34,279 nt of DNA from Deltaproteobacteria bacterium (GTDB lineage: Bacteria > Desulfobacterota > Dissulfuribacteria > Dissulfuribacterales > JALVPX01). The notes beneath the pieces are model-generated. The model saw only the letters and a program-made list of their open reading frames with translations. It did not search any database and was not told the origin of the DNA. The translations under genes were made by a program, and so were the position numbers. Below, piece by piece: positions 17,039 to 34,065 of this stretch (position 1 is its first letter; every line of letters starts with the position of its first letter). The stretch spans positions 1-34,279 of the forward strand of contig JALVVK010000087.1 of assembly GCA_027023445.1 (NCBI GenBank). The letters are read 5' to 3'.

Positions 17039-17043
17039 AAGAA

Positions 17044-17091
17044 CCTCCCTTCGGACATTGTGTTTTGGCCCTTTGCACAAGGGCAAGGAGG
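17044..17091 (-). promoter_or_regulatory. Putative S6:S18 (rpsF) leader autoregulatory RNA element
   Basis: Transcript CCUCCUU-[GCCCUU GUGCA AAGGGC]-CAAAACACAAUGU-CCG-AAGGGAGG: outer stem sequesters the SD, inner hairpin, CCG in the 3' asymmetric bulge. Confidence 0.65.
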
Positions 17092-17275
17092 AAACGGTTG
17101 AAAAACAGTTCTTCCTGTAAAGTTGCATTCTTTACCCGAGAGTTAAGGAATAGTCAAGTATAGCCGGAAAGTTGTCTTCTGTTCAAAAAACCATCACTTT
17201 ATCGCAGGCATAGCGCAATCCAGAATAATACGCCTTGCCCACCTTCCCCACATGTTTTAACGTAAAATATCAGTA

Positions 17276-17538
17276 AGTAATCCGTATCATGCAGCTTGTA
17301 AGTTTGCCAAAGATGCGAGGCGGAGAGCACGCAGGCGCACCTTGGTACTTCAAGTGCCTGACAACAAGGCAGATTCGGTAAAATTGCGAGCCCCCTGCGG
17401 CTTCAAATGCCTGAAGATCTGTCACGGATTAGACTTCACCTTTTGGCTGAAGGCACAACGGGAACAATTACATACTAACCATGCAATAATTCAATGAAAT
17501 TATTTTCTTCATACATTTGAAGTGCATAACCGGGATTA
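17276..17538 (+). repeat. Palindromic MITE-like dispersed repeat, copy A
   Basis: Shares GCAGATTCGGTAAAATTGCGAGCCCC (17369-17394) and extended flanking similarity with the reverse complement of 28578-28828. Confidence 0.85.
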
Positions 17539-17671
17539 ATTGTGGTTGAACATACTGACAGGGGATAACGCCTCAAAACAACGGATTTGTCCGTGGGCTG
17601 TCGCCTCTGGCGCATAGGTGGTTTTCAGCACGTTTTTTAATGCGTGCCGTTCAGGTCAATGGAGGAAAGAG

Positions 17672-27573: not shown

Positions 27574-28515
27574 TTATAGTCCTTGATCCCGTAGCGGCGG
27601 GCATGGAAATTCATTCTTCTTTTTATCGATCAGCATAAATCCTATTCTTACCTTGGTATATATCCGGACTATGCCATCCTGTTCTATCTCCATCATCCGT
27701 TTTTTTACCAGGTCCTTTTCTTTATCTTTCAACGGACGTATTGTTTCCAGTTGCCAGATCAGCCCTTCCACCTGCCTGTCCACGGGTCTGGCCCGTTCCC
27801 AGCATCCATGGAAAAATTTCAGTTCGGGTGCGTATCCCATTGAATAAAGATAGTTAAATAGAATGATTATGTCGCTTCTGTACCTCCTGTCGCGTTTTTC
27901 ACCATGGATTTCCTCATGGAGGCGGTCAAGAATGGGATTTTCCTTAATTCCGGCCCAGCATACAATGGCCAGGAATCTGTCTGAATATTCAAGGAATCTG
28001 TCAATATTATCCATGGATTGAAGCAGGGGTGTCATGGACACGAAAACCAGGCCAAACCTTTCATCACAGCTGAAATGGTGCCAATCCGCCTGGATAGTTC
28101 TGACATTTTGTATGCCTGTTTTTATCTGTTTTTCTTTGAGCCGGTTCAGCATCCCCTCAGAAATATCCAGGGCCACTACTTCCCTGCAGTGGGGGGCCAT
28201 GCGAAGCGCGTAGGTCCCGGTCCCGCAGGCCACATCCAGCACATTTTGATCCTGTGACAGGGCACCGTGTTTTTTCAACGCCTTCATTATGGTGTTTACC
28301 TGATACATATAATCGGAGCATACTTCGAGATCATCATATGTGGAGGCGGCCTTGTCCCAGCAATCTCCTTTAAGATATTTGTGCCCAGAGTCCCCGGCCA
28401 GCCTGCGGCTGAAGTCCTTCCAGAAATCAGGGGTCAGGTGATGGGGGTATTCTGTTTTATCATTCATGTTCACACCTTTATATCGACAAACCAAAAAGTT
28501 GTCTTTTTTTGCCAT
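27574..28515 (-). CDS. Class I SAM-dependent methyltransferase
   Basis: NVLDVACGTGTYALRMAPHCREVVALDISEGMLNRLKEK. Confidence 0.88.
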   Translation of the reverse strand: MAKKDNFLVCRYKGVNMNDKTEYPHHLTPDFWKDFSRRLAGDSGHKYLKGDCWDKAASTYDDLEVCSDYMYQVNTIMKALKKHGALSQDQNVLDVACGTGTYALRMAPHCREVVALDISEGMLNRLKEKQIKTGIQNVRTIQADWHHFSCDERFGLVFVSMTPLLQSMDNIDRFLEYSDRFLAIVCWAGIKENPILDRLHEEIHGEKRDRRYRSDIIILFNYLYSMGYAPELKFFHGCWERARPVDRQVEGLIWQLETIRPLKDKEKDLVKKRMMEIEQDGIVRIYTKVRIGFMLIDKKKNEFPCPPLRDQGL

Positions 28516-28577
28516 TTACCATTTACGGTTTACAATTTATGATTATACACTTTTTTATAACAAACGGTTCAAACCTT

Positions 28578-28828
28578 TAAACCCGGATTATGCACTTCAA
28601 ATACCTGAAAAAAGGATTTTCATAAAATAATTAAATGGTTGCCAGGCTTTTCCTTCGCCCAAAAGGTACGGCTTTCTCCAGTGTTATGTCTCAGGCACCT
28701 GAAGCCGCAAGGGGCTCGCAATTTTACCGAATCTGCTACGTTGTCGCGCAGTTGAAGTACACAATTACGTCTGCGTGCCCTTCGCCTTGCATCTTCGGCA
28801 AACCTGCGAGCCGCATAATCCGGGTTAA
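28578..28828 (-). repeat. Palindromic MITE-like dispersed repeat, copy B (inverted relative to copy A)
   Basis: Terminal inverted repeats ACCCGGATTATGC (28581-28593) / GCATAATCCGGGT (28813-28825); inner arms 28713-28731 and 28794-28812. Confidence 0.88.
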
Positions 28829-28843
28829 AACAGGGGGTAGATA

Positions 28844-33683: not shown

Positions 33684-33782
33684 GATAGAAAAGGCAATGG
33701 GCCTGGTTTCTTATGGATGAAGGTTTGTAATAATATCTCAAGTTTCGGGATTGTATAATTAGCTTAAAAAACATTAGATTAG

Positions 33783-33809
33783 CCATGGACCCACAAGGAC
33801 TTACATGGA
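33783..33809 (+). repeat. Short dispersed repeat CCATGGACCCACAAGGACTTACATGGA
   Basis: Near-identical to 32863-32889, same orientation. Confidence 0.75.
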
Positions 33810-33817
33810 CAAATACC

Positions 33818-33847
33818 TTTAGTCATGCCCGACCGGGCATGACTAAA
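33818..33847. repeat. Perfect 30-bp palindrome
   Basis: TTTAGTCATGCCCG-AC-CGGGCATGACTAAA. Confidence 0.8.
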
Positions 33848-33912
33848 ACTCCAAAAGTTATTTTAAGTCAGAAACTTGAGATAATATAACATCCGGTAAT
33901 CGTTAAATACAG

Positions 33913-34009
33913 TGTTAAATGGTAAATTCTGAATGTTAAATTAAGGTGCCGAGCTATTATATCTTTCTGAATTTAATAAAAATTTGCTTGCACAATTTAC
34001 CATTTAACA
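33913..34009. repeat. Inverted repeat pair in AT-rich intergenic DNA
   Basis: TGTTAAATGGTAAATT (33913-33928) / AATTTACCATTTAACA (33994-34009), perfect 16-nt pair. Confidence 0.7.
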
Positions 34010-34065
34010 TTTTAAATTCAGATGGAGGCGTTTGAACTTGATACGAGCATCAGAGGGAATCCCCT

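Follow-up and report, generated by a model that had tools for sequence, protein, structure and literature searches.

The repeat that occurs twice in the window, a stretch of 34,279 nucleotides corresponding to the complete contig C87 of a 2.24 Mb deltaproteobacterial draft genome (G000), is best explained overall as a MITE mobilized by an IS1380-family transposase, with a conserved interior fold that serves the element itself. The probability of this combined reading is put at about 0.7. MITEs are usually viewed as transposon ends flanking a dispensable interior. Here the interior appears to be the conserved part: the architecture, and often the length, is similar in distant lineages, while ends and stems change sequence in concert. 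Should the fold prove important for movement, the element would be a parasite of a DNA transposon whose needs are RNA-like.

Copies A and B and the repeat family

Copy A (17281–17534, forward strand, 254 bp, delimited by alignment to the family) lies between rpsF and hsp20, and copy B (28582–28824, reverse strand, 243 bp) lies between a methyltransferase gene and fmdE. As noted in the original prediction, both intergenic regions are divergent, and the copies stand about 11 kb apart in opposite orientation. The description of A and B as inverted and diverged copies of a single element, with an exact 26-nt core (17369–17394), was also borne out: in a search of the genome, A aligns to inverted B with 72% identity over query positions 9–270 (E 9e-34), and this full-length alignment rules out a likeness confined to the core. 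The right terminal motif is present in B as GCATAATCCGGG, and A reads GCATAACCGGG (17523–17534, forward strand), one base having been deleted from the family form. The left terminal inverted repeat of A (17281–17293, forward strand) is degenerate, as had been described; it begins TCCGTATCATGC, with 3 of the first 12 bases differing from CCCGGATTATGC. The flanking target duplications of A, AGTAA at 17276–17280 and ATTAA at 17535–17539, match at four of five bases. B has perfect 12-bp ends and identical TTAAA duplications at 28577–28581 and 28825–28829. With three changes at its left end and one deletion at its right, A is evidently an old, decayed insertion. Its closest relatives are copies on contigs C31, C1 and C39 (85–88% identity), not B.

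Further copies are numerous. In its own genome the element has about 50 matching places (50 matches with A, 66 with B), comprising full copies and fragments, and 27 of the 41 genomes searched, own genome included, contain matches. These extra copies, the terminal inverted repeats, the 5-bp duplications and the two-hairpin fold did not figure in the original prediction. Intact copies have terminal inverted repeats of 12–13 bp (CCCGGATTATGC..GCATAATCCGGG) plus a 5-bp target duplication, and the terminal stem is 95.6% paired across 79 copies. Perfect duplications of 5 bp flank 16 of the 30 own-genome copies with recognizable ends, and none of the 30 is perfect at 6 bp; the mean flank match in this set is 81% at 5 bp against approximately 40% at 4 or 6 bp. 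Among relatives, 46 of 63 copies have a perfect 5-bp duplication, compared with 3.8 expected by shuffling (maximum 14). The duplicated targets are A+T-rich. The element is about 255 bp long, its longest stop-free stretch has a median of 67 and a maximum of 84 codons, and it contains no transposase gene. A short repeat with terminal inverted repeats, target duplication, dispersed copies and ends in common with an autonomous-type element has the characters by which MITEs are recognized, and the family is almost certainly one. Carriage as plasmid or phage cargo was rejected, as searches of plasmid and phage collections with B, and of the plasmids with the form found in genome G147 (below), gave no match.

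An empty site documents the insertion. In genome G019, the copy at L252 1707–1962, with TTCAA on each side, interrupts a different repeat, which a gapped search within the same genome finds uninterrupted and with a single TTCAA at L252 5721–5804 and L179 10261–10344. At the level of sequence comparison, this exact empty site demonstrates insertion. An ungapped empty-site search gave no match, owing to small indels; in the sister species of G019 the element is absent, but the flanks are too diverged for nucleotide-level empty sites. The target repeat (beginning GGTTTCCCCCACAGCAAAAGCC, and also present at L252 753–838 and L179 60–147) is larger than the element and unrelated to it.

Shorter forms occur as well. 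One contains H1, the first of the two interior hairpins, without the second (L063 1470–1593, 124 bp), and three of 147–148 bp contain only the second, H2 (L065 1559–1705, L061 839–985 and L069 1539–1686), all with perfect 5-bp duplications. Given these forms, the long element looks modular. In the own genome, a further locus (L066, contig C25, about 760–1030) has ends CCTAAATCCTGCA, the same H1 and a TTATA duplication on both sides. L192 holds a relative of the element with ends CCCAGATTATGCA and, again, the same H1.

IS1380 ends and transposases

Which enzyme moves an element that has no transposase gene? Pieces of an IS1380-family transposase are found in the own genome at the ends of contigs C9 and C94 (NF033539, E 9e-45; PF13701). 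The IS ends on these contigs begin CCCGGATTATGCAGCTC.. and read CCCGGATTATGCAGCTCAAAGG and CCCGAATTATGCAGCTCAAGG, the first having 17 bases identical to the left end of the repeat. Complete IS copies with CCCAAATTATGC ends and perfect 5-bp duplications are present in other metagenome-assembled genomes, at L102 (about 1642 bp, TTGAA) and L103 (ATAAT). IS1380 elements duplicate 4–5 bp (PMC12116815), and IS1247, a member of the family, duplicates 5 bp (PMC3281130). Both features expected for IS1380 mobilization, CC..GG ends and a duplication of 4–5 bp, are present in the IS and in the repeat. From the matching IS ends, the 5-bp duplications and the empty site, the repeat is therefore classed as an IS1380-type MITE, and an IS1380-family enzyme very probably moves it in this bacterial order. 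The transposase, whose action in trans we infer from the matching ends, would recognize the terminal inverted repeats and insert the ~255 bp MITE at A+T-rich targets, duplicating 5 bp.

The own-genome IS1380 copies, cut by contig ends (L088 1–690, L087 1160–2048 and the end of L089), look decayed in sequence: L088 has an apparent frameshift at an A-run in its N-terminal part, and a stop codon interrupts the frame of L087. The L103 contig (QMNG01000095.1, 3.1 kb) is filed as candidate division Kazan, its IS1380 element resembles those of these Deltaproteobacteria, and misbinning is possible. At least part of an IS1380 transposase is present in G000, G018, G019, G029 and G126. The PF13701 transposase was not found in G113, G147 and G175, three distant genomes rich in the element, where the mobilizing enzyme may have been lost, nor was an IS1380 transposase found at the threshold used in G006 and other carriers. 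For G147, a pattern search for an autonomous parent and inspection of two single ends led to ordinary genes. An IS1380-family element in G126 (L221) has a right end, CCTGAATTTTGCG, that closely resembles the termini of the repeat in G147, which belongs to another family of the phylum.

Like the IS1380-family elements IS1247 and ISEcp1/ISEc9, the repeat has ends beginning CC and a short A+T-rich duplication, but it has no transposase and an interior non-homologous to the IS. The Tn3-derived TIMEs are reported to be non-autonomous as well and to rely on a larger transposon's enzyme for movement, but that transposon belongs to another family (PMC4133298). Searches of the open-access journal literature returned no IS1380-type MITE in this group.

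The interior fold within and beyond the family

In the family consensus, the inverted repeats pair into a terminal stem, which leads into a junction in which H1 (~98 nt), a short conserved piece forming a mini-hairpin, and H2, with an A+T-rich loop, follow one another. In A, all on the forward strand, H1 occupies 17294–17391 (covariance model R1, 103.6 bits, E 6.9e-27), the conserved junction piece CCCCTGCGG, which folds, 17392–17400, and H2 17401–17522 (family columns 121–242, stem 96.4% paired). The junction piece corresponds to family columns 112–120, which are 94–100% conserved except for one column at 71%; its counterpart in other lineages is a CCCGnAGGG mini-hairpin. In B, on the reverse strand, H1 lies at 28714–28811 (116.4 bits, E 1.5e-30) and, from the fold of this copy, H2 at approximately 28595–28704. 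The fold of B has a z-score of −5.6, none of 200 shuffles being equally stable; that of the decayed A (z −1.4) is not clearly better than shuffled sequence.

This interior is not IS-derived. Similarity between repeat and IS stops after the ends, and model R1, built from H1 alone, finds no H1 inside any IS, its single match there (in L100) falling outside the IS. Because the IS contain no H1, the interior was not made by shortening an IS, and an origin of the element by internal deletion was rejected.

In the 79 copies, pairing at the named pairs amounts to 94.2%, whereas random reassignment of partners gives 90.5% (maximum 90.8); changes on both sides of a pair number 195, compared with 33–52 in slid registers. 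Within the window's own family, no single pair reached significance in an all-pairs covariation test against a tree-based null, because subfamilies differ at many columns simultaneously. The structural claim thus rests on the family pairing, on covariation of H1 across the phylum and on an excess of G-U over A-C pairs. In 28 H1 sequences from different lineages, whose alignment was made with R1, itself built from the same hairpin, and leans towards its 13 pairs, pairing is 91.3% and there are 188 double changes against 13–36 in slid registers. The covariation score in this set is 0.549 compared with 0.05–0.11 when slid, and none of 500 shuffles scores as high; this strong signal needs the distant lineages, not the window's family alone. 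For pairs whose commonest form is Watson-Crick, chosen from folds of the H1-to-H2 strand, G-U exceeds A-C in 37 pairs and the reverse holds in 19 within the family (sign test p 0.011), with 16 against 6 in the phylum-wide set (p 0.026). The effect is modest and favors selection on the H1-to-H2 strand in single-stranded form over a double-stranded cruciform. Template-switch correction of palindromes, and not selection, could account for some of the pairing between the arms. Overall, a conserved fold is very probable. It is not a known Rfam RNA: no Rfam family reaches its gathering score in the window, and none credibly matches the element in six related loci.

R1 has matches in 13 of 198 genomes of the phylum, with at least 20 each in G113, G147 and G175. 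The flanks of these matches were unseen by the model, and around the distant ones they contain inverted ends beginning CC, then H1, the mini-hairpin and H2, often with 5-bp duplications. The ends themselves differ: CCTGAATTTTGCA in G147, CCTAAAACCTGCA in G113, CCTAAATTGAGCG in G175 and G225, CCTCGATGTTGCA in family f20, where the H2 stem and the duplications are less regular, and CCCAGATTATGCA in G014. Length constancy across lineages is partial: most of the inspected G147 copies measure 256–258 bp and most of those in f20 257, but the figures are 197–209 in G175 and 274 in G113. The predicted fold architecture therefore recurs in distant lineages with different termini and arms. It is conceivable, though we regard the idea as tentative and rather doubtful, that these forms make up one phylum-wide mobile family whose conserved part is the folded core, as RNA or single-stranded DNA, rather than the ends, the core swapping ends to suit the available IS1380-like transposase and being active in transposition or persistence.

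The Correia/NEMIS, ERIC, RUP and CIR repeats, bacterial MITEs whose transcripts form stem-loops (PMC2229807), are, like this element, small, non-coding, intergenic and present in many copies that fold as single strands. Several share with it inverted ends and a target duplication, and NEMIS, too, comes in a longer and a shorter version, distinguished by an internal segment. The element differs from them in its 5-bp duplication and IS1380-type CC..GG ends, which are not of the TA type, and in a two-hairpin junction fold that recurs phylum-wide with exchanged ends. It has covariation-supported structure in common with Rfam RNA families, though it matches none of them.

Alternative readings and gene order in relatives

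What does the fold do? One of its strands, either as RNA or as single-stranded DNA, would act in the spread or survival of the element itself. A role in the element's own spread rather than in the host is preferred because no copy was detected at the A and B sites in several relatives and the gene settings are varied, and on these grounds we give service to the element and not to the host an even chance. An ordinary MITE would have ends that mobilize and a passive interior, the fold being a relic of nested inverted repeats made symmetrical by template-switch correction and recent spread. The H1-only and H2-only forms agree with this, since their perfect duplications indicate that an element lacking one or the other hairpin can still insert, as does the unsuccessful all-pairs test within the family. 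It is nonetheless an unlikely account: distant lineages keep the architecture, and often the length, despite exchanged ends and arms, the asymmetric unpaired core is conserved, and symmetric correction of double-stranded DNA does not give a G-U excess on one strand. Alternatively, the transcribed fold could be a mobile riboregulator acting on RNA stability, translation or termination of neighboring genes, with copies retained for host benefit. B sits between a promoter-like site (28509–28536) and the likely ribosome-binding site of fmdE and may be 5′ untranslated, most copies are intergenic in a rough ORF scan, and transcripts of Neisseria MITEs have been proposed as RNase III targets (reviewed in PMC2229807). 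The element was, however, undetected at the A and B sites in several relatives, its copies lie in mixed gene settings and orientations, and a consensus promoter match does not prove use, so that a regulatory role appears improbable. Rough ORF calls gave no clear orientation bias relative to neighboring genes, and a second orientation scan counted many copies twice, once per strand, owing to the palindromic ends. Promoter-like sites upstream of B extend over 28509–28543, and B may thus sit in the fmdE 5′ untranslated region.

Two further readings fare worse than the IS1380-mobilized MITE. The opposite orientation and ~11 kb spacing of A and B had suggested a substrate for inverting the lon-ffh-trmD-phoU segment, a proposal that found no support and is very improbable as the purpose of the pair. 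Lon-anchored comparison with three genomes from other genera shows gene order and relative orientation unchanged: G018 agrees over the whole rpsF–fmdE interval, G006 between hsp20 and fmdE, and G001 from rpsF until the conserved run ends at the methyltransferase gene. The longest A-B identity, 26 bases, is ordinary, being equaled or exceeded in about 70 of 300 own-genome copy pairs (up to 100 bases), and many other copies could pair equally. No recombinase gene was noticed near A or B. Nothing marks this pair for inversion, although inversion by chance recombination is conceivable. A REP/BIME-type palindrome or an IS200/IS605-derived palindromic element would also be an intergenic palindromic repeat. 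Such an identity is scarcely credible here: the element has terminal repeats in pairs, duplicates 5 bp of its target and left an exact empty site to compare with, all of which are features of DDE transposition, and the 5-bp duplications likewise make a REP element with a RAYT (Y1 transposase) unlikely.

Of the two things that the original prediction proposed to look for in relatives, empty sites were seen to the extent that no copy was detected at some sites, and an inversion was not seen. G018 has no detectable element at either site, and in G001 and G011 none was detected between rpsF and hsp20. Near the hsp20 site, G006 contains a relative with different ends, and the matches in G029 and G030 are partial. 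The matches at or near rpsF/hsp20 (window 17040–17670, L182 about 14604, L183 14887–14941 and L180 4347–4414) come from four genomes of different families (G000, G006, G029 and G030) and differ in form and orientation; the region is possibly an insertion hot spot or the place of an old insertion.

With its borders and covariance model, the repeat family is ready for use in annotating genomes of this phylum, in which copies of the element are often near contig ends. Near the contig end of the window itself (33711–34018) there are imperfect inverted repeats, with arms at 33711–33746/33871–33906 and 33908–33942/33980–34014.
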